A stretch of 34,093 nucleotides of DNA, from contig JAFDWT010000103.1 of assembly GCA_018268335.1 (NCBI GenBank), positions 1 to 34,093 on the forward strand, read 5' to 3'. A program made the translations under genes and the position numbers. The number at the start of each line of letters is the position of its first letter. The first letter of the stretch is position 1. Below the pieces are notes generated by a model. That model was not told where the DNA came from. It saw nothing but the letters and a program-made list of their open reading frames with translations, and ran no database searches. The stretch is from Armatimonadota bacterium. GTDB taxonomy: Bacteria > Armatimonadota > Fimbriimonadia > Fimbriimonadales > Fimbriimonadaceae. Shown piece after piece: positions 24,966 through 34,093 of the stretch.

Positions 24966-24995
24966 ATTATAGACCAGTCAAGTCGCGTTTGTACA
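24966..24995 (-). promoter_or_regulatory. Probable gltBD promoter
   Basis: On the minus strand TATAAT (24966-24971) is preceded, 18 bases away, by the -35-like TGTACA (24990-24995). The leader would be about 45 bases. The -10 box and the following bases (TATAATGCTC) are identical to those of the LacI operon promoter near 16856. Confidence 0.55.
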
Positions 24996-25060
24996 GGTTT
25001 TTTCCTCCTCCCTTTCCTGGAAGTGACCAGTCCGTCCGTCTACATCGAACTCCAGCCAAG

Positions 25061-27856
25061 ATGTCGGACATGCGACCACACAGCGACGGACTTCTTGGGT
25101 TTGATCCCGCCGCGCACGGCCTGAGCGAGCCCCTCGGGAAACAGCTACAGCTGGTCGACAGGCTCTTAGGCGAGGTCGTCGCCGAGTTCGAGGGCCCGGA
25201 GTTCGTGGCCCTCGTGCGCCGGTTACAGGAACTGTCGCTAAACAACCCAGAAGCTGATCCGCTGGAAGCCATTCCTGAACTCCGCGACCCCCAGAAAGCC
25301 GAGCGGGTCGCTCGCGCCTACACTGTCCTTTTCCAACTGGTCAACCACGCCGAGCAGGTCGAGATCGTCCGCGTCAATCGGTCACGCGAACGTCGCCCCG
25401 AATCGATCCGCGAAGTCATCCGCACATTGGCGGAGCGGGGCCAATCCGTCGACGACATCGTCGAAACGCTCCACCGCCTGTTCGTCTGCCCCACCTTGAC
25501 CGCCCACCCCACCGAAGCCAGGCGCCGGGCTGTTCTCGATCGGCTCAACGCCATTTGTGGTTCTCTCAGCCGCCTGGGCCAGCCGCGCAACCTCGTCGAT
25601 TTGGAGCGACCGCTGGACGACAAAGAGTGGGATCTCACCGACCTGCGCCGCAACCTGATCAACCTTTGGCAAACGCCGGAGATCAACAGCGACTCGCTGC
25701 ACGTCAGCGACGAGGTCGCCAACGCTCTCTACTATTTCGAGTCGACGATCATGCGCGTGGCCTCCTGGCTGCGCCGCGACATCGAGATGGCGCTCAAGGA
25801 ATTGGCGGGCCACGAGGTCGCCGTGCCCCGTGTTCTGAGCTACCGGTCGTGGGTCGGCGGAGACCGGGACGGCAACCCCTACGTCACCGCCGACGTGACT
25901 TGGCAGACGATCCTGCAACACCGCAGACTCGCCATCAGCGCCTACCGTGACATTGCCGAGAGACTCCGCAGCGAGCTCACCCAAGACGCCAAGGACTTGG
26001 ACAAGAAGCACCCGTTCTGGGCCATGTCACGCCATGCCTCGCTGGCCGCCGACCTGGACGGAGACACTGTACGACGACACGCCCAAGAGCCCTTCGCCCT
26101 CTATCTGGCGGCCCTGTCGTCCACCTTGTCCGGCGAGTTGACTGCCTTGTCGCGCATGGAACAGGGGGTTGGCCCGACCCGGGTCTGGCTCGACGAAGCG
26201 ACACTGCTGCGGGACCTGGAATGCCTGCAGGACGCCGTCGCCTGCTGCGGCGGCGAGCTTGCGGCCAGGACCGGTCTTCTTGCTCGGTTTGTCCGGCAAG
26301 CGCAAATCTTCGGAGTCAGCCTTGCTGCCTTGGACATCCGCCAACACTCCGAAGTCCATGCCCCCACCGTCGGCGCCCTGCTCGCGCAGGCGGGCAGGAT
26401 CAGGTCGGCCAAAGAATATGTCGAGGCCGACGAAGAGCAAAAGGTCGAGTGGTTGACCCTCGAACTGCTAGATAGACGGCCCTTGGTCGGCCCCAGTTGG
26501 CGCTCCAACGCCAAGGACGAGGCGGTGCGGGATGTGTTCCGGACGATCAAACACGCCCACGACACCTTCGGCAAAGACTGCGTCCGTTGCCACGTCGTCA
26601 GCATGACGCACGGGGTGAGCGACCTTCTGGAAGTGCTCGTGCTCGCCAAGGACGCAGGCCTCGTCGAACACGTCAAAGGCCATCCCTCCGGTTCTCTGGA
26701 CATCGTCCCACTGTTGGAGACCATCGACGACCTGAAAGCCAGTCGCCAATTGGTGGAGTCCCTCTGGTCCAACCCAGCTTATGCCGGATACCTCAAAGGC
26801 CGGAACATGCGGCAAGAGGTCATGTTGGGCTACAGCGACAGCAGCAAGGACGGCGGCTACTTGGCTGCCAACTGGGAGTTGCACGTGACCCAGAGTGAAC
26901 TGGCCGCCGCCGCCCGCGAGAACGGTGTCCGGCTCCGCCTGTTCCACGGCCGCGGTGGCACCGTCGGGCGCGGTGGCGGCCGGGCGAACCGGGCCATCCT
27001 CAGCCAACCGGCGGGGTCGTTTGACGGCCAAATCAGGTTCACCGAACAGGGTGAGGTCGTTTCTTTCCGCTACGGCCTCCGCCCCATCGCCCATCGGCAC
27101 TTGGAGCAGATCATCTCTGCCTCGATGCTGGCCGCCAGCCACGGCGGCCCGGCCAAAGAAGAGCCGAGGCCCTGGTGGGACGCCATGGACGAGCTCGCCG
27201 CCGCCTCAATGGCCTGCTACCGCCGGTTGGTCCACGAAGACCCGGAGTTCTGGCCGTTTTATCTCCGTTCGACCCCGATCCGCGCCGTCGGCCGTATGAG
27301 TATCGCGAGCCGCCCGGTCTCGCGCCCCGGTAAGGCCGACCTCGGTCTGGACGGCCTGCGTGCGATCCCCTGGAACTTCGCATGGGTGCAAAGCCGCCTG
27401 CTTGTGCCTGGTTGGTTTGGGCTCGGTACAGCCATCGAGAGCTTTCTCTCTGCTCACGCCGACGGGCTCGAAAGGCTGCGTGAGATGCACACCAACTGGC
27501 CGTTCTTTCAGACGATCGTCGAGAACGTCGAGTTGGAGCTTATGCGAACGCACTTGCCCACAGCCGAACTCTATTCTCGCCCCGGCGACGACGGCGCGAC
27601 TGGGCGGATCATGGGTTTGATTGAACGGGAGTTCCAACGGACCGTCCGAGCGGTCACCGGCATCCTGGGCACGAACCAGTTGATGGAAGGAGCTAAGATG
27701 GTCCGGAACACCATCGCGTTCCGCAACCCAGTCGTCTTCCCGCTCAACATGCTGCAAGCGTCGCTGCTCCGCCGTGTCCAGGCGGACGAGGCCTATGAAG
27801 GTGCCCTATTGCAAAGCGTGGCCGGAGTCGCAGCCGGCATGCAAAGCACCGGCTAG
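25061..27856 (+). CDS. ppc: Phosphoenolpyruvate carboxylase
   Basis: This 931-residue enzyme adds bicarbonate to phosphoenolpyruvate to form oxaloacetate, refilling the citric-acid cycle when intermediates are drawn off for amino acids. Key motifs are complete: 'TAHPTEARRR' with the catalytic His, 'SYRSWVGGDRDGNPYVT', 'LDIRQHSEVH', 'GYSDSSKDGGYLAANWEL' and the mobile loop 'HGRGGTVGRGGG'. Length is normal for the bacterial family. I chose ATG 25061; an open frame extends to 24989, but the added residues look unlike the family, and no ribosome-binding site favours them. The gene is divergent from gltBD and shares its stop (CTAG) with the convergent regulator gene. Confidence 0.97.
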   Translation: MSDMRPHSDGLLGFDPAAHGLSEPLGKQLQLVDRLLGEVVAEFEGPEFVALVRRLQELSLNNPEADPLEAIPELRDPQKAERVARAYTVLFQLVNHAEQVEIVRVNRSRERRPESIREVIRTLAERGQSVDDIVETLHRLFVCPTLTAHPTEARRRAVLDRLNAICGSLSRLGQPRNLVDLERPLDDKEWDLTDLRRNLINLWQTPEINSDSLHVSDEVANALYYFESTIMRVASWLRRDIEMALKELAGHEVAVPRVLSYRSWVGGDRDGNPYVTADVTWQTILQHRRLAISAYRDIAERLRSELTQDAKDLDKKHPFWAMSRHASLAADLDGDTVRRHAQEPFALYLAALSSTLSGELTALSRMEQGVGPTRVWLDEATLLRDLECLQDAVACCGGELAARTGLLARFVRQAQIFGVSLAALDIRQHSEVHAPTVGALLAQAGRIRSAKEYVEADEEQKVEWLTLELLDRRPLVGPSWRSNAKDEAVRDVFRTIKHAHDTFGKDCVRCHVVSMTHGVSDLLEVLVLAKDAGLVEHVKGHPSGSLDIVPLLETIDDLKASRQLVESLWSNPAYAGYLKGRNMRQEVMLGYSDSSKDGGYLAANWELHVTQSELAAAARENGVRLRLFHGRGGTVGRGGGRANRAILSQPAGSFDGQIRFTEQGEVVSFRYGLRPIAHRHLEQIISASMLAASHGGPAKEEPRPWWDAMDELAAASMACYRRLVHEDPEFWPFYLRSTPIRAVGRMSIASRPVSRPGKADLGLDGLRAIPWNFAWVQSRLLVPGWFGLGTAIESFLSAHADGLERLREMHTNWPFFQTIVENVELELMRTHLPTAELYSRPGDDGATGRIMGLIEREFQRTVRAVTGILGTNQLMEGAKMVRNTIAFRNPVVFPLNMLQASLLRRVQADEAYEGALLQSVAGVAAGMQSTG

Positions 27857-28566
27857 GCCGTGAAGTGCCGGACATTGGCCGCCACGTCGACCTGCCCGGT
27901 GGCACGGTATCCGCGCCCGGGTTCGGTGACGATGTACCGCGGCTGCGACGGCTCGAGCTCGATCTTCTGGCGCAGTTGGCCGACAAAGACGCGCAGGTAG
28001 TGGGTCTCCTCAGCATACGCCGCACCCCACACTTTGCCCAGCAGATCACGGTGGCCGACCACCTGGCCTTCGTTCCGCACGAGGGTCCAAAGGAGTTTGA
28101 ACTCCGTCGGCGTCAAGTGGACTTCGCGGCCACGAACCATCACGCTCTTGCTTGTGGGGTCCACCACGAGCCTGTCTTCGTCCACCGGGTGACCTTCGAT
28201 GTACTCCTCACCGCGACGGCGTCGCAGCGTGACCCGGATGCGGGCAAGGAGCTCGCCGAGGGCAAACGGCGTGGTCAAATAGTCGTCAGCACCAGACTCG
28301 AGGGCGGCCACGATCTCAGTCGTTCCCGACCGATCGGACACGACGAGCAACACGGCTTGCGACTTCTGTCGCAGGATTTTCAGGCGCTGCGTGTCAGGCA
28401 GGTCGAGGATCCGGGTCGGCAAGACGACAACGTCCGGGTTGACGCTGTCCAAAGTGTCCAATGTTTGTGGCAGGTCGGCAGCTTCGACAACGGCGTAGCC
28501 TGACCGCTCCAATGCGGACGCAACGCGCCTTCTCTCTGCCGATTCTGGTTCGACGACCAATACCAT
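27853..28566 (-). CDS. KdpE-like regulator with degenerate receiver domain
   Basis: This 237-residue OmpR-type regulator has an intact winged-helix DNA-binding domain (about 140-237). It is close in style to KdpE ('LTPTEFKLLWTLVRNEG', 'EETHYLRVFVGQLRQKIELE', 'GRGYRA'). The receiver domain (1-115) keeps its fold pattern but lacks the phosphorylation residues: the acidic pair is E6-P7, the phospho-acceptor position is P50 ('VVVLPTRILDLP'), and the conserved Lys is T99 ('LTTPF'). S77 is retained. It therefore belongs to the atypical, aspartate-less receivers and cannot be controlled by ordinary phosphotransfer. No histidine kinase is adjacent. GGAG lies 7 bases upstream of the chosen ATG 28566. 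It is divergent from mscL and convergent with ppc. Confidence 0.85.
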   Translation of the reverse strand: MVLVVEPESAERRRVASALERSGYAVVEAADLPQTLDTLDSVNPDVVVLPTRILDLPDTQRLKILRQKSQAVLLVVSDRSGTTEIVAALESGADDYLTTPFALGELLARIRVTLRRRRGEEYIEGHPVDEDRLVVDPTSKSVMVRGREVHLTPTEFKLLWTLVRNEGQVVGHRDLLGKVWGAAYAEETHYLRVFVGQLRQKIELEPSQPRYIVTEPGRGYRATGQVDVAANVRHFTA

Positions 28567-28609
28567 GCTCTTCTCCGAAACAGTTTCCACCGGGCTTATC
28601 ACTCCGGCC

Positions 28610-28627
28610 AACCGGTACCGTCCGGTT
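28610..28627. promoter_or_regulatory. Inverted repeat upstream of the KdpE-like regulator
   Basis: AACCGG - TACCGT - CCGGTT is a 6-bp inverted repeat 44 bases before the regulator's ATG, within the divergent gap to mscL. It could be an operator, possibly for the regulator itself, or an mRNA hairpin. Confidence 0.3.
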
Positions 28628-28677
28628 AGACCGCTCTCCTATTGGTCTTGTTCCATAGCTTTTTCGTCGGAATCTAG

Positions 28678-28689
28678 TTGACCCGTCAA
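28678..28689. promoter_or_regulatory. Palindrome TTGACCCGTCAA upstream of mscL
   Basis: TTGAC - CC - GTCAA lies 50 bases before the mscL ATG. Its left half also resembles a -35 box, but no -10 box with proper spacing was found. It is a candidate regulator site for mscL. Confidence 0.3.
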
Positions 28690-28738
28690 GCTTTTGGGAG
28701 GGCTGACAATCCTGCGGGGAACCAGGTACCGTCGCGGC

Positions 28739-29170
28739 ATGGGAATGGTCCAGGAATTCCGCGACTTCGCCGTCAAGGGCAACGTGATCGATCTGGCCGT
28801 CGGTGTGATCATCGGCGGTGCCTTCGGCAAGATCGTCGATTCGATGGTCAAGGACGTCGTCATGCCGCCCATTGGCATGGTGCTCGGCAAGGTCAATTTC
28901 AACGACATGTACGTGTTGCTGTCGACCGAGAAGGGCTCCAGCTTCGCTTCCTTGGCCGACGCCCAAAAGGCTGGCGCGCCAGTCTTGGCTTACGGCGCCT
29001 TCATCAACAACATCATCAGTTTTCTGATCCTGGCCTTTATTGTCTTCTTGATGGTCAAAGCAATCAACTCCGCCAAGAAGGCCGAGCCAGAAGTGGCCGC
29101 CACGCCAGAACCGACGCCAAGCGAAGCCCTACTTTCCGAAATTCGTGACTTGCTGAAGAAGGGCAGCTGA
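28739..29170 (+). CDS. mscL: Large-conductance mechanosensitive channel
   Basis: This 143-residue channel opens when membrane tension rises and lets solutes out during hypo-osmotic shock. The first helix contains 'DLAVGVIIGGAFGKIVDSMVKD', shown here in the family's typical form, and 'MPPIGMVLGKVNF' follows. The second helix is 'FINNIISFLILAFIVFLMVKAIN'. The C-terminal part is a charged helix after a Pro-rich linker ('PEPTPSEALLSEIRDLLKK'). Length and pattern match MscL well. I chose ATG 28739; 28745 is also possible, and the frame reaches 28694 without family-like residues. Its neighbour on the other strand is a KdpE-like regulator, which may control it. Confidence 0.96.
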   Translation: MGMVQEFRDFAVKGNVIDLAVGVIIGGAFGKIVDSMVKDVVMPPIGMVLGKVNFNDMYVLLSTEKGSSFASLADAQKAGAPVLAYGAFINNIISFLILAFIVFLMVKAINSAKKAEPEVAATPEPTPSEALLSEIRDLLKKGS

Positions 29171-29194
29171 AGATTGGCCTCGGCATAGCCAACC

Positions 29195-29226
29195 GGTGTC
29201 CCGACAATTCCCTTTGTCGGGGCACC
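29195..29226 (+). other. Stable hairpin directly before the HDOD gene start
   Basis: GGTGTCCCGACA (29195-29206) pairs with TGTCGGGGCACC (29215-29226), 12 base pairs including one G-U, over an 8-base loop. The stem ends one base before the ATG at 29228. No T-run follows, so it is a poor terminator for mscL. If co-transcribed with mscL, the stem would block ribosome access to the HDOD start. Confidence 0.6.
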
Positions 29227-29227
29227 T

Positions 29228-30073
29228 ATGGCACAGACTTTTGACCAACTCGTGCGCGCGTTCAACGGCGCGTCCAACCTGCCCCAACCCTCCAAGTCGC
29301 CTTTGCGCCTGTCGGCCTTGCTGGAGTCCGGAGACCCTTCGCCAGCTGAAATCGAGGCGATCGTCCACTCCGACCCCGCGCTGACGGCCGGGCTGCTCAA
29401 GACAGCCTCTGCCGCGGCCTTCGGTCGGACGCGCCCCGTCGGCTCGATCCGCGAGGCCGTAATGGTCTTGGGCTTCCGCGCGCTCCGTTCCGTTGCCATT
29501 GCCCTTTGGACACAGGCCCTTGTGTGTGAAGGTAAGCACAAGTCTCGCCTAGATTTGGTCCGGTTCAGCACGGGCAGCTACTTCACCGGCATCCTCGCCA
29601 GTGAGCTGAGCAGCGTCTCGCCAGAGCCAAAAGGCGAGGGGGCCTGGTCGAGCGAGGAAGTCTTCGCGTTCGGAGTCCTCGGTCGACTAGGAGTCGGTCT
29701 TCTGTCTCTCTTGGCCCCCGACGAGTTCGACCGTGTCTATGCCAAGGCTGAGTCGGACAAGACGTCCCTGGAGACTGCTTTCCAAGCCCTCCATGGTCGG
29801 TCATTGCACGAATTGGCATTGGTCGGCGCTCGCTCTATGGCTCTGCCTGAGTCTCTCTGCGCGGCCTTGGAGACGCTCAGCACCGGGCAGGGTCTGCCGG
29901 GTGCCGTAGCCGCGACCTCCTTCGTCACAACTGCCCTCCAGGTCGCCGACTCCAATGGCATGGGCATTGGGAAGTGGGATGTGTCCCTGGACTTGCCAGA
30001 TGATCACGAACTGGCCGAACTCATCGAGCGGGCCAAGGCCTCGTCAACTGGCACTTTGCTCAAGTCGGCCTAG
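29228..30073 (+). CDS. HDOD-domain protein
   Basis: This 281-residue protein is built around an HDOD domain (about residues 20-215), a relative of HD phosphohydrolases that lacks their metal-binding residues and usually acts in signalling. Typical stretches are 'IVHSDPALTAGLLKTASAAAFG' split by normal variation, 'VGSIREAVMVLGFRALRSVAIALW' and 'EEVFAFGVLGRLGVGLL'. No output or other catalytic domain is seen. HDOD proteins are reported to influence motility, biofilm and stress responses in other bacteria, but its role here is unknown. It starts 57 bases after mscL, directly behind a stable hairpin, and has no visible ribosome-binding site. The 3' end overlaps argH on the other strand by 14 bases. 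Confidence 0.85.
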   Translation: MAQTFDQLVRAFNGASNLPQPSKSPLRLSALLESGDPSPAEIEAIVHSDPALTAGLLKTASAAAFGRTRPVGSIREAVMVLGFRALRSVAIALWTQALVCEGKHKSRLDLVRFSTGSYFTGILASELSSVSPEPKGEGAWSSEEVFAFGVLGRLGVGLLSLLAPDEFDRVYAKAESDKTSLETAFQALHGRSLHELALVGARSMALPESLCAALETLSTGQGLPGAVAATSFVTTALQVADSNGMGIGKWDVSLDLPDDHELAELIERAKASSTGTLLKSA

Positions 30074-31268
30074 ACTCTTCGTCCGCCAACCTGGCTGCGA
30101 CGGTGCGATAGGCCTCCCTGAACGACACGCCGGTCTCGACGACCAGGCGGTACGCCTCCTCAGTCGCTTGGATGGGCCCCTGCACAGCCATCGCGCACAC
30201 CTCTTCGTCGAACTCGACGGCGGGGAGCGCGGCGACCATCACCTGGCAACACGCTTCTGTCCTGTCCAGGACACGGAACAGTGGCGCTTTGATGAGCTGG
30301 AGGTCGCGATGATAACCCGAAGTCATCTTCGCCGTCGTCGCCAGAACCGCCATCAGATCGCCCTGCGCTTGCCCGCTATGTCCGCGCACCAACTCGAAAA
30401 CGTCAGGGTTCCGCTTCTGCGGCATGATCGACGAGCCCGTGGTGAATGCCGCCGGCAGACGGACGAACCCAAATTCCTGGCTGTTGTAAAGGCACAGATC
30501 AGCAGCCAGCCGGCCAAGGTCTTGCAAAAGCAATGTGCACTGGAACGCAAGGTCGGCCTCGGCCTTGCCGCGGCTCAGCTGAGGAGCCGTGACCGGATCG
30601 TGCACCTTGTCAAAACCAAGCTCTTCTGTCGTTTGTTCTCGGTCTAGTTTCAAGCCCGGCGTCCCATATCCGGCAGCGCTTCCAAGCGGATTGACAGACA
30701 GGCGGCGCCGAGATGCGGCCACGCCCTGGCCCGAATCCCGCACTTCGGTGGCAAAGCCACCCGCCCACAGCGCGACCGAACTGGGCATCGCCCTCTGCAT
30801 GTGTGTGTAGCCAGGCAGAGGCTTGGCACCCTGTCTTTGCGCCAAGCTGTCGAGTGCTTCAGCGACTTGCCCCGCCAGTCCACAGATCTCGGCGACACGG
30901 TCGATTAAGTAGAGCCGGAGCGCCACCAAAACTTGGTCATTGCGCGACCGACCCAGATGCACGCGACCACCGAGGTCGTCCAGCTTTTCAACCAAACGGT
31001 TCTCAATGGCGGTATGGCAGTCTTCTTCTTCCAGGGTGACGTTCCACTCGCCAGTCGCATGCGATGCACCAATTTCAAGTAATGCCCGTTCCAGAGCTGT
31101 GAACTGCGCGGCCGTCAAATATCCTTGTTTCGACAGCATCCGCGCATGGGCGATCGAAGCACGGATGTCGTATTCAACCAGTCTGTCGTCCAGCACATGG
31201 TCGTCACCCACGGTGAACCGGAGCACCGCCTCGTTCATCGGCACGCCCTTGTCCCAAAGCCTACGCAT
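30060..31268 (-). CDS. argH: Argininosuccinate lyase
   Basis: This 402-residue enzyme splits argininosuccinate into arginine and fumarate, the last step of arginine synthesis. Family motifs are present: 'LWDKGV' at the start, 'DIRASIAHARMLSKQGYL', 'VHLGRSRNDQV', 'PGYTHMQRAMP' and the signature 'GSSIMPQKRNPDV' with the catalytic Ser loop. It is shorter than the E. coli enzyme (457 residues) because the sequence ends soon after 'GVSFREAYRTVAARLA', lacking the last C-terminal stretch. The N-terminus resembles the shorter enzymes of Bacteroidetes. The ATG at 31268 overlaps the deacetylase stop by 8 bases. It is the last visible gene of the arginine operon. Confidence 0.95.
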   Translation of the reverse strand: MRRLWDKGVPMNEAVLRFTVGDDHVLDDRLVEYDIRASIAHARMLSKQGYLTAAQFTALERALLEIGASHATGEWNVTLEEEDCHTAIENRLVEKLDDLGGRVHLGRSRNDQVLVALRLYLIDRVAEICGLAGQVAEALDSLAQRQGAKPLPGYTHMQRAMPSSVALWAGGFATEVRDSGQGVAASRRRLSVNPLGSAAGYGTPGLKLDREQTTEELGFDKVHDPVTAPQLSRGKAEADLAFQCTLLLQDLGRLAADLCLYNSQEFGFVRLPAAFTTGSSIMPQKRNPDVFELVRGHSGQAQGDLMAVLATTAKMTSGYHRDLQLIKAPLFRVLDRTEACCQVMVAALPAVEFDEEVCAMAVQGPIQATEEAYRLVVETGVSFREAYRTVAARLADEESRPT

Positions 31269-32322
31269 GTGCTGCAAACTCCTTCACCAATTGGTTGTAA
31301 AACATCAGTCCTTCCTCGAGCTCGCTTTCCAGAACATATTCATCCGCCGTGTGCGATCTTGCCGTGTCGCCCGGCCCACATTTGATCGCTGGCCAACCGG
31401 CGAAAAAGACCTGGTCGCTCATCGTGCGACTGCCAAAGGTGCCACGTCCTCCAGCAGACAGGGCGGCACGAACAACCACGGCATCCTCAGGACACTGATA
31501 AGGCTGCAACCGAATCGAGCGGGCCCTTATTTCTCCCGACACATGCGCCCGCAAAAGTTCGACGATCTCCTCATGTAACACGCCCGGAACTGAACGGATG
31601 TCAAGCACACACTGCGCCACGTCAGACACCTGGTTCCTCGCTTCGGCCGCCGACAAGGAGGTCGGTTGCAAGGTCGTCTTGCCCAGCTGTGGATGCTCGG
31701 GCCCTAGCGACACGCCTTGCAAGGCGACGAGATCAGCCGCAAGTCCCCACACCGGATTGACCGCCCCCAACTCCGCCGCGTTGGCCGCATGGCAAGCCTG
31801 CCCGCGAGAGACCAACTCCAACACGAGCATCCCCTTCTGCGAAGTGCCCACGGCAAGCCCAGTCGGCTCACCGACAACAATGCCCTCTGGTCGATACCCT
31901 GACTGCTGGAGCCGAGGCCAAACCACCTCGGTGCCCCGCCCTCCCGTCTCCTCTTCTTGCACCAAGGTCAACGTGACCTCGCAAGGCCCGCCCGACTTTG
32001 CCACTTCAAGAAGAGCAAGGGCCATGCAGGCGGCCGAGGCTTTCGCGTCGTTCGAACCGAGCCCAATAACCTTGTCCCCGTCGCGCCGGATCTTCCAAGG
32101 ATCATCGGTCCATGAAGGCGTCGGCGGCACAGTGTCCAAATGGGTGTTAAACAGCAACTTCGGCCCGCTGCCAGCCCGGGCGACGACATTGTTCTCCCAG
32201 CGCTCGACCCAAACGCCATGGTCGCGAAAAAAAGCCTCGGCCACATCGGCCACCGCCGTCTCGTCGTGCGAGACCGACGGCGTTTCGACCAACGCCCGAT
32301 GGAATTCGGCGACCAAACCCAA
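31261..32322 (-). CDS. argE: M20 deacetylase of the arginine pathway (ArgE-like, probably acting on N-acetylcitrulline)
   Basis: This 353-residue zinc amidohydrolase of the M20 family carries metal and catalytic residues in 'FNTHLDTVPP', 'GLGSNDAKAS', 'VQEEETGGRGTE', 'VVGEPTGL' and a C-terminal 'RSHTADEYV'. In the usual pathway ArgE removes acetate from acetylornithine. Here the adjacent transcarbamylase looks like the N-acylornithine type, so the more likely substrate is N-acylcitrulline, as in Xanthomonas. The TTG start at 32322 is supported by GGAGGA 6 bases upstream, inside the end of argB. The operon order and the overlap with argH support a role in arginine synthesis; the exact substrate is inferred. 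Confidence 0.85.
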   Translation of the reverse strand: MGLVAEFHRALVETPSVSHDETAVADVAEAFFRDHGVWVERWENNVVARAGSGPKLLFNTHLDTVPPTPSWTDDPWKIRRDGDKVIGLGSNDAKASAACMALALLEVAKSGGPCEVTLTLVQEEETGGRGTEVVWPRLQQSGYRPEGIVVGEPTGLAVGTSQKGMLVLELVSRGQACHAANAAELGAVNPVWGLAADLVALQGVSLGPEHPQLGKTTLQPTSLSAAEARNQVSDVAQCVLDIRSVPGVLHEEIVELLRAHVSGEIRARSIRLQPYQCPEDAVVVRAALSAGGRGTFGSRTMSDQVFFAGWPAIKCGPGDTARSHTADEYVLESELEEGLMFYNQLVKEFAAHA

Positions 32323-32324
32323 CC

Positions 32325-33218
32325 CTATCCTCCGCCTTTGCCTTCTAGCGACTCGACGCTGCGGACAATCATCGTCCCGCTCCCTTCGTTGGTGAAAACC
32401 TCTGTCAGCAAGGCGTCCGCCGGCGCATGGCCGATCACATGGACGCGCTCAACACCACCTTCAATGGCTCGCCTGATCGAAGCCGCCTTGGGGTTCATCC
32501 CCGCGGCCAACACACCGCTGGCCTCCAGGTCTTGCAATCCAGCCAGATCCGTGTAGCTGACGAGCGACGAAGGGTCAGCAGGATCGCGAAGGATGCCCGG
32601 CGCACCGGTCATCGAAACCAGCTTGTCCGCCCACAGGGCGACCGCCAGCTCGGCGGCGACAGTATCGGCGTTCACATTCAGGGCCTGTCCGTCCGCGTCA
32701 GCGCAGATTGGGCTGACGACTGGCATGATTCCGGCGGCAAGAAGTGTGTTCAAAACACTCGCGTCCACTTTCTGAATGTCGCCGACCATGCCAAAGTCCG
32801 CGCCCTTCTTGGCCGGTCGCTTCTTGGCGGTCACCAGCCCGGCGTCCATTCCCGAGACGCCAACGGCGGTCAAGCCGATCTGCCGGCAGACCGCAAGGAT
32901 CTCCGCCCGGACAGTGCCGTTCAGCGCGAAGACCATCGCCTCCAGCATGCCGCTGTCGGTGACGCGACGGCCTTCGATGAACTGACTTGCGTGCCCCAAG
33001 CGCTTACCGGTCTCGGTCGCCTGTGGCCCACCACCGTGTACCAAGACGATCTTGATCCCAAGTTGGGCAAGGAGCGAGACCTGGCGCAAGACGTTGAACG
33101 TCGACTCTCGGGCCAAAAACGCCTCGCCACCGACCTTGATGACAAAGGTCTTGCCTTGGTACAAGCGCAGGTAGGGCGTCGCCTCCAAGAGGGCTTTCAT
33201 GGTTTGGTTGCTGGGCAT
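32325..33218 (-). CDS. argB: Acetylglutamate kinase
   Basis: This 297-residue kinase phosphorylates N-acetylglutamate, the second step of arginine synthesis. Motifs of the amino-acid kinase fold are clear: 'FVIKVGGEAFL' for ATP, 'VLVHGGGPQATETGKRLG' with the glycine-rich loop, 'RRVTDSGMLEAM', 'LNVNADTVAAELAVALWADKLVSMT', split by family-normal residues, and 'GGVERVHVIGH' near the C-terminus. The ATG at 33218 lies 1 base after the transcarbamylase stop, and the next gene starts 2 bases after its own stop. A second ATG (33200) is possible. No N-terminal arginine-sensing helix is obvious, so feedback control cannot be judged. Confidence 0.95.
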   Translation of the reverse strand: MPSNQTMKALLEATPYLRLYQGKTFVIKVGGEAFLARESTFNVLRQVSLLAQLGIKIVLVHGGGPQATETGKRLGHASQFIEGRRVTDSGMLEAMVFALNGTVRAEILAVCRQIGLTAVGVSGMDAGLVTAKKRPAKKGADFGMVGDIQKVDASVLNTLLAAGIMPVVSPICADADGQALNVNADTVAAELAVALWADKLVSMTGAPGILRDPADPSSLVSYTDLAGLQDLEASGVLAAGMNPKAASIRRAIEGGVERVHVIGHAPADALLTEVFTNEGSGTMIVRSVESLEGKGGG

Positions 33219-33219
33219 A

Positions 33220-34093
33220 TCAGTGGGAGTCCTCGGCTAGCGCGGCCAGCACGGCCTTCTGCACGTGCAACCGGTTGGCGGCTTGCTGGACGACCACACT
33301 GCGCGGACCGTCCAACACTTGGTCAGATACTTTCACATTGCGCCTGACGGGCAGGCAGTGCATGAACTTCGCGTCGGGAGCGGCGTTGTGGAACCATGGT
33401 TCGTCGACAGTCCAGTCGGCAAACTGCTTGCGCAGTTCGTCGTCCTGCTCCGACTGGCCATACAGCTGCGGCGCCGCCCAAGACTTGCAATACATGACGT
33501 GGGCACCGTCGAGCGCAGCGTCGCGATCGTCCGTCTCGATAACAGTGCCACCGCCGGCAAGGGCCGCCGCGTCGATTCTGGCCCGACCCTGCGCCGGAAG
33601 CGCGTAGGGAGCGGGACGCAATATGCGGACATCCATGCCCCTTCTCGCTGCCATTGAGGCGGCAGCCAGCGGTACCGCATACGCCAGCGCTTTAGGGTGG
33701 TATGCCCAGCTCAACACGAACCGACCATTTGGTGGAATCTCTAGGTCGTCAAGAGTCTTCCAATCGGCGAGAGCTTGGCACGGATGGTCGCTGGCCGATT
33801 CCATGTTCACAAACGGTACCGGGCTCAGACCGGTGATTCGCTTGAACAGTGTCTCGCCAAGGTCTTCATCCAAAACCTTGCCTGCAGCAAAACAGCGGAC
33901 TGCGAGAATATCGCAGTACTGTCCAAGCACTGGAAAGGCTTCGTTGATATGCTCCTGCGCCGCGCCGTCCATGCGGACACCGTCGCGGGTCTCCAGTTGC
34001 CAACTCCCGGCGCCGGGCTGGATCACGAAACTCGAGCCCCCAAGATGCGCGACTGCCGTCTGGAACGATGCCAGGGTGCGCAGCGACGGGTTC
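33220..34093 (-). CDS. argF': N-acylornithine carbamoyltransferase (ArgF'), N-terminus outside window
   Basis: This transcarbamylase transfers the carbamoyl group to an ornithine derivative. About 290 residues are visible and the frame is open to the window edge; the first residues seen are 'NPSLRTLASF', the phosphate-binding loop. Instead of the STRT motif of ordinary ornithine transcarbamylases it has the NPS(L/M)RT form, and 'MDGAAQEHINEAFPVLGQY', 'VLSWAYHPKALAYAVP', 'MYCKSWAAP', 'HCLPVRRNVKVSDQVLDGP' and 'ANRLHVQKAVLAAL'. These match the acetylornithine and succinylornithine enzymes of Xanthomonas and Bacteroides. The position I align with the acyl-selecting Glu92 of the Xanthomonas enzyme is Gln, so the acyl group is uncertain. 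It heads the visible argF'-argB-argE-argH operon. A frame beginning at GTG 34026 is too short and cuts the phosphate loop. Confidence 0.88.
   Translation of the reverse strand, partial: NPSLRTLASFQTAVAHLGGSSFVIQPGAGSWQLETRDGVRMDGAAQEHINEAFPVLGQYCDILAVRCFAAGKVLDEDLGETLFKRITGLSPVPFVNMESASDHPCQALADWKTLDDLEIPPNGRFVLSWAYHPKALAYAVPLAAASMAARRGMDVRILRPAPYALPAQGRARIDAAALAGGGTVIETDDRDAALDGAHVMYCKSWAAPQLYGQSEQDDELRKQFADWTVDEPWFHNAAPDAKFMHCLPVRRNVKVSDQVLDGPRSVVVQQAANRLHVQKAVLAALAEDSH

Follow-up and report, generated by a model that had tools for sequence, protein, structure and literature searches.

A probable acylated-type arginine operon of an Armatimonadota bacterium and a P-loop protein as candidate for its first enzyme

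The 34,093-nucleotide stretch analyzed here (the window; contig JAFDWT010000103.1, positions 1 to 34,093, of the Armatimonadota assembly GCA_018268335.1, family Fimbriimonadaceae) ends in an arginine operon built around a transcarbamylase. This raises the question which form of ornithine the transcarbamylase uses and, if that form is acylated, which protein acylates glutamate in the first step. A preliminary description of this DNA had reported an operon of transcarbamylase, argB, M20 and argH genes, and all four lie on the minus strand at the positions it gave, with the family models in agreement. Beyond that description, the operon proved to extend onto a second contig (C39) and to include a gene for a P-loop protein, here called X, and the genome proved to lack the classical first-step enzymes. 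Its place, its near-perfect co-occurrence with the transcarbamylase and its replacement of known synthases single out X as the strongest candidate for a new N-acylglutamate synthase. Gene content, linkage, co-occurrence, the absence of the first enzymes searched for and the fold class of X are computational observations, from which an activity, an acyl donor and an acyl group can be proposed. An acylated-type arginine operon with X as the most likely first-step enzyme is our explanation of the whole locus, and we consider it probable. The genes are as follows.

33220..34092, minus strand: predicted acylornithine transcarbamylase of the acetylornithine/succinylornithine transcarbamylase (AOTC/SOTC) family, residues 45 to end (NF003384, PDB match, tree)
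L007:7344-7498, contig C39: first 44 codons of the transcarbamylase gene (24-nt overlap of the contig ends)
32325..33218, minus strand: argB, N-acylglutamate kinase of 297 aa, kinase domain only (TIGR00761)
31261..32322, minus strand: M20 metallohydrolase, presumed N-acylcitrulline deacylase (PF01546; place in the operon)
30060..31277, minus strand: argH, argininosuccinate lyase (TIGR00838), likely start at the ATG at 31268
L007:5289-6344, contig C39: X, P-loop protein of 351 aa, encoded between argG and argC

The genes of the window operon (30060-34092, minus strand) lie 1-2 nt apart, except for M20 and argH, which overlap. ArgB scores 207.8 bits with TIGR00761 (cut-off 151.3) and ArgH 308.9 bits with TIGR00838 (cut-off 279.5). 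The M20 protein reaches 81 bits with PF01546 (cut-off 24.6) and passes the cut-off of none of the named ArgE/DapE models listed. The 5' end of the transcarbamylase gene is truncated by the contig end at the window edge. The end of contig C39 shares 24 identical bases with the window end and contains the missing first codons; a partial OTCace_N match elsewhere in the genome is this missing 5' end. Further upstream, C39 carries argC (TIGR01850, 248.7 bits, cut-off 233.6), X, argG (with a run of N inside the gene) and argR (by Pfam Arg_repressor), so that the joined order is argR-argG-X-argC-transcarbamylase-argB-M20-argH. The join is sound, since all eight genes occur in identical order on a single contig of a same-genus genome (G165; 74-89% identical).

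The transcarbamylase scores 314.5 bits with NF003384 (cut-off 288), despite 44 missing residues. Its best PDB matches are, in order, the Xanthomonas campestris AOTC (3kzc, E 1.5e-61), the Bacteroides fragilis SOTC and then ornithine transcarbamylases (OTCs). In a tree built with a quick method from 106 rows (the partial L054 excluded), 102 acyl-type rows split from four OTCs with a Shimodaira-Hasegawa-like approximate likelihood ratio test (SH-aLRT) support of 100; this tree, proposed in the preliminary description as a check, thus places the protein outside the OTCs. Ordinary OTC was also looked for in the genome, as had been suggested there, and none was found in this assembly (3.09 Mb, 93.6% complete). 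The sole other OTCace protein adjoins PyrR-like and dihydroorotase-like genes (neighbors named by eye from translations) and is read as PyrB. The assignment to the acyl type, which the preliminary description had made and which is supported here, follows from the family score and the tree, not from motifs. The protein does contain SLRT, HPCQ and HCLP, with E and K at columns E144 and K252 (X. campestris numbering), and the available part of one study lists the carbamoyl-phosphate motifs SxRT, HPxQ and HxLP together with conserved E144 and K252 as marks of the AOTC/SOTC family (PMC4581275). The NPSLRT and HCLPVRRNVK forms from which the acyl type had been argued are both present, but they distinguish poorly, and NPSLRT was dropped as a deciding mark: the equivalent stretch is KPSLRT or KQSLRT in ordinary OTCs of this phylum. 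We also rejected the view that the protein is an ordinary OTC and the M20 enzyme a conventional acetylornithine deacetylase. OTCace domains are common to both kinds of transcarbamylase, but the OTC models stay below their cut-offs (NF001986 gives 150.7 bits against 306), NF003384 is above its cut-off, the tree separates the two, and DxxxSMG, an OTC mark in the same partly available source (PMC4581275), is absent from the translation; this reading is very improbable.

The nature of the acyl group had been left undecided in the preliminary description, rightly so, as the published signature residues do not read as acetyl. The AOTC signature is E92/N185/K302, and that of SOTC is A/S/P/V/Q at 92, P at 185 and V/I/E at 302 (PMC4581275, in the part available). 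The window transcarbamylase and its sister have Q92/A185/K302, so that the AOTC-proper signature Glu92/Asn185/Lys302 is absent from the window protein (Q, A, K), and of the SOTC-proper signature Q92 fits while A185 and K302 do not. Elsewhere in the X clade, position 92 is mostly A or V and position 185 mostly P; no member of the clade has E92, and GapMind takes S, P, A or V as succinyl-preferring (PMC7311316, in the section available). The residues thus do not support an acetyl substrate; they tentatively favor succinyl, and another acyl group is possible. The name of NF003384, N-acetylornithine carbamoyltransferase, was dropped as proof of an acetyl substrate: a Bacteroidota SOTC relative (L062:8869-9816) passes this model as well (297.7 bits, cut-off 288). 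The equivalog name therefore overstates the acyl group, as the model also takes in enzymes with a succinyl or an as yet unassigned acyl group.

Two known systems resemble this one. With the AOTC pathway of X. campestris it shares the transcarbamylase family, whose gene here forms one operon with those for ArgB, M20 and ArgH, and an acyl group presumably kept until citrulline, but the signature differs. In bacteria with the Xanthomonas-type AOTC the synthase is fused to ArgB, according to the portion of PMC4490483 available, whereas here ArgB is a kinase only and X is a separate protein. With the SOTC pathway of Bacteroides it shares the gene set and, in most of the window's clade, the SOTC-like A/V92 and P185. 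The differences are a separate tree branch, formed by 29 Bacteroidota-type rows with the B. fragilis SOTC, and a GNAT in the Bacteroidota operon, which the tested genomes of the X clade lack.

This GNAT leads to the first step. ArgA (TIGR01890) was above its cut-off in none of 84 genomes (0/48 near-clade and 0/36 Armatimonadota genomes) and in one of 14 control genomes. Strong matches to TIGR01890 are ArgB-type kinase domains and most others weak GNATs of up to 58.7 bits; the match of the window ArgB is restricted to the first 280 of 429 positions, with no acetyltransferase domain. ArgJ (PF01960) had no match in the window genome and none in the 48 near-clade genomes; ten of 14 control genomes have it. 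In Bacteroidota arginine operons, a GNAT is encoded at the equivalent place (alignment A4), and from this place we infer that it belongs to the family of BT3761, a relative of the synthase Cabys_1732 and, in the available part of the GapMind study, a probable N-succinylglutamate synthase (PMC7311316). Of 20 non-planctomycete comparison genomes, 18 contain the A4 GNAT; seven of these supplied A4 rows and match by construction (11 of the other 13 match). It was found in none of four Planctomycetota and in none of 56 X-clade genomes, namely all 36 from Armatimonadota (including G172, where no X was found) and 20 of the 48 others. Since A4 is present in Bacteroidota and absent from the X clade, X and the GNAT stand in for each other; neither is present in two of the comparison genomes (G342, G366) and in one planctomycete (G344). 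Alternatively, the pathway might be acylated as proposed and its first step performed by an unrecognized GNAT or another acetyltransferase encoded elsewhere, X being an accessory such as a regulator or metabolon protein. Short GNAT N-acetylglutamate synthases diverge widely (PMC4490483, in the portion available), and some X genomes contain weak GNAT matches, including one of 25 bits in the window genome. Yet no GNAT is recognized consistently, the one of the Bacteroidota operon is missing from the X clade, and X is always present instead and conserved like an enzyme (invariant GKT, K192, D201 and E251), which makes this alternative unlikely.

X as the first enzyme also agrees with its distribution. 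Among 291 Armatimonadota genomes, which are related to one another so that counts are not independent, X occurs in 35 (34 at ≥283 bits and a contig-edge fragment in G171) and the transcarbamylase likewise in 35 (34 above the cut-off and a partial one in G158). The two sets share 34 genomes and have a union of 36, the exceptions being G170 (X only, 72% complete) and G172 (transcarbamylase only, 77% complete). Distant homologues in G107 and G117 (105-111 bits) and short weak matches in four more genomes were not counted as X. ArgJ is found in 211 of the 291 genomes, none of which is among the 36 with X and/or the transcarbamylase (lists intersected by reading). Because of this relatedness, the swap within genus g6 is more telling than the phylum-wide counts: of its 20 genomes, four carry X together with the transcarbamylase, 15 carry ArgJ and one carries neither.

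Relatives of the transcarbamylase were found in at least 80 loci. The 48 near loci (L008-L055) are 42-63% identical over the best segment, and their record titles name Gammaproteobacteria and other Proteobacteria, Myxococcota, Acidobacteria, Planctomycetota, a Chthonomonas and a Diapherotrites archaeon; the 32 others (L056-L087) are 38-43% identical and mostly from Bacteroidota. X is encoded upstream of the transcarbamylase in all 42 near loci with enough flanking sequence (42/48 overall), the remaining six (L018, L021, L032, L043, L049, L050) having less than 2 kb before the match and thus being unable to show X. None of the 32 more distant loci contains X, and a search of their whole genomes found it only in three Planctomycetota (L056-L058), leaving 29 of 32 without. 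In the two planctomycete regions read (L093, L094), X adjoins argG. In all 20 Armatimonadota regions fetched, X accompanies arginine genes, in several gene orders and usually next to argC. X co-evolves with the transcarbamylase, ArgB and ArgC: the distance correlations over 55 loci are r 0.93-0.95, and none of 500 shuffles was as high. In the tree, the window transcarbamylase lies within a clade of 60 rows (support 100) that comprises near-clade and Armatimonadota loci only, six of the rows being too short to show X. Eight X-bearing rows fall outside this clade, so the association with X spans more than one branch, although it may still have a single origin.

The X proteins (about 350 aa) belong to no Pfam family, all Pfam matches being weak. 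Of the NCBIfam models only mobB is listed, below its cut-off, and the ArgA model TIGR01890 is not matched. The idea that X is outright a DUF1611 protein (PF07755) came first and was not upheld by the Pfam cut-off, with 15.8 bits for the X of the window genome against a gathering score of 25; 30 of 37 relatives match DUF1611 at E ≤0.1 (best 1.9e-4). An alignment of 37 full-length members has a mean column identity of 73%, with an invariant GKT in the phosphate loop (GT-x4-GKT) and invariant K192, D201, D207, D218, E251 and T311-D312-N313, besides X's own conserved TGVSLRRD-like and ELGDG motifs. An AlphaFold2 model of the X from L012 has a mean predicted local distance difference test (pLDDT) of 92.4 and a predicted template modeling score (pTM) of 0.90. 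Its C-terminal P-loop domain resembles the DUF1611 structures 2g0t (Z 17.1, root-mean-square deviation (rmsd) 2.9, 184 residues aligned) and 2obn (Z 17.0, rmsd 2.7, 184 aligned), CTP synthetase (1s1m, Z 16.8) and BioD (3of5, Z 16.7); as Z differences below 1 are ties, DUF1611, BioD and CTP synthetase are tied. The domain also resembles DgcN (7xrj, titled N-acetyltransferase DgcN; Z 15.6, rmsd 3.0, 182 aligned). X differs from DgcN and DUF1611 in a sequence below the Pfam cut-off, an N-terminal domain with no solved match and its arginine-operon setting, and from BioD and the synthetase domain of CTP synthetase in an extra N-terminal beta domain and its own motifs. The phosphate loop of BioD has the same GT-x4-GKT form as that of X. 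The fold shared with BioD and CTP synthetase would also suit a different role in the acylated pathway, for example the transfer of an acyl or carbamoyl group or a BioD-like amine carboxylation, and X neighbors argC most often and occurs in proteobacterial loci in which no M20 was found. However, complete operons hold genes for all later steps, M20 included, and X is still there; we consider such a different role improbable.

Several observations weigh against X as the first-step enzyme. X is below every Pfam cut-off, and PDB sequence searches with its profile and with single sequences returned no match. Its likeness to DgcN is limited to the fold (10% identity), in which ligases with other functions score equally well. 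The N-terminal 150 residues, modeled on their own, resembled none of the solved chains that were compared (best Z 2.8), which is no proof of a new fold. Distant X homologues occur without this operon, both in the ArgJ-bearing G107 and on plasmids. The absence of first enzymes covers ArgA, ArgJ and the A4 GNAT, with ArgO, C-NAGS and LysW/ArgX not searched, and the weak GNAT matches (up to 58.7 bits) in part of the X genomes could conceal an unrecognized GNAT. Finally, the proteobacterial loci (L013-L039 and others) yielded no M20, a result for the locus only, with no search for their deacylase elsewhere.

In most of these proteobacterial loci argB is closely followed by argH, so their acylcitrulline deacylase would be encoded elsewhere or be a different enzyme. 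M20 is in the operon in the window, in 15 of 20 Armatimonadota regions and in the non-proteobacterial near loci L008-L012, L019, L040 and L055; the window enzyme would act as the acylcitrulline deacylase, as the preliminary description had predicted.

The distant homologues were observed in three settings. In G107 (L120:5985-7079), the homologue lies in surroundings in which no arginine genes were found, in a genome that has ArgJ, so the wider X family has other roles. On a Priestia megaterium plasmid (NZ_CP085446.1, L123:4899-5960), a homologue with 25% identity stands beside genes for a phosphoenolpyruvate (PEP)-mutase family enzyme, thiamine pyrophosphate enzymes, two ATP-grasp ligases, M20 and OTC; this looks like a phosphonate natural-product cluster, its OTC perhaps serving self-protection. 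A Sulfitobacter plasmid protein (L122:3872-4969), labeled DUF1611 domain-containing, aligns with X over both domains (28%) and is below the Pfam DUF1611 cut-off, so that the label may hide a separate family.

Two further observations concern the surroundings of the operon. Just upstream of argR on C39 (L007:3670-3700), TGCATAA-like repeat units lie about 10 bases apart and are kept upstream of argR in the same-genus genome (L095); they are likely to be an ArgR operator. The neighbors in the window (24989-30073) look ordinary, their translations, read by eye, resembling PEP carboxylase, a response regulator, MscL and an HDOD-domain protein.

In the pathway that we propose, glutamate would be N-acylated, then phosphorylated by ArgB, reduced by ArgC and transaminated to N-acylornithine, which the window transcarbamylase would convert to N-acylcitrulline. 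The acyl group, which serves as a protecting group, would thus be retained until citrulline, longer than in the more widely used route; M20 would strip it, and ArgG and ArgH would complete arginine. The first step would be performed by X rather than by ArgA, ArgJ or a GNAT, through its BioD/CTP-synthetase-like P-loop domain. The acyl donor could be acyl-CoA, as is thought for DgcN, a D-glutamate N-acetyltransferase of related fold, or a free acid with ATP. DgcN belongs to a pathway converting D-glutamate into N-acetylglutamate, according to the available parts of two reports (PMC11747546, PMC10845958). We found no paper that ties an X-type P-loop protein or DUF1611 to arginine synthesis, which is weak evidence since subscription journals were scarcely covered.

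We lean, with some reserve, towards X as the founder of a new N-acylglutamate synthase class that has no relation to ArgA, ArgJ or GNATs: a P-loop enzyme that may start arginine synthesis in part of the Armatimonadota, many uncultured Gammaproteobacteria and others, possibly by ligating a free acid at the expense of ATP. Next to the Xanthomonas and Bacteroides versions of the acylated-citrulline pathway, it would define a third. If X is indeed the first enzyme, an unrelated fold would join the short list of glutamate-protecting enzymes, and X would fill a gap that would otherwise make these genomes look auxotrophic for arginine.

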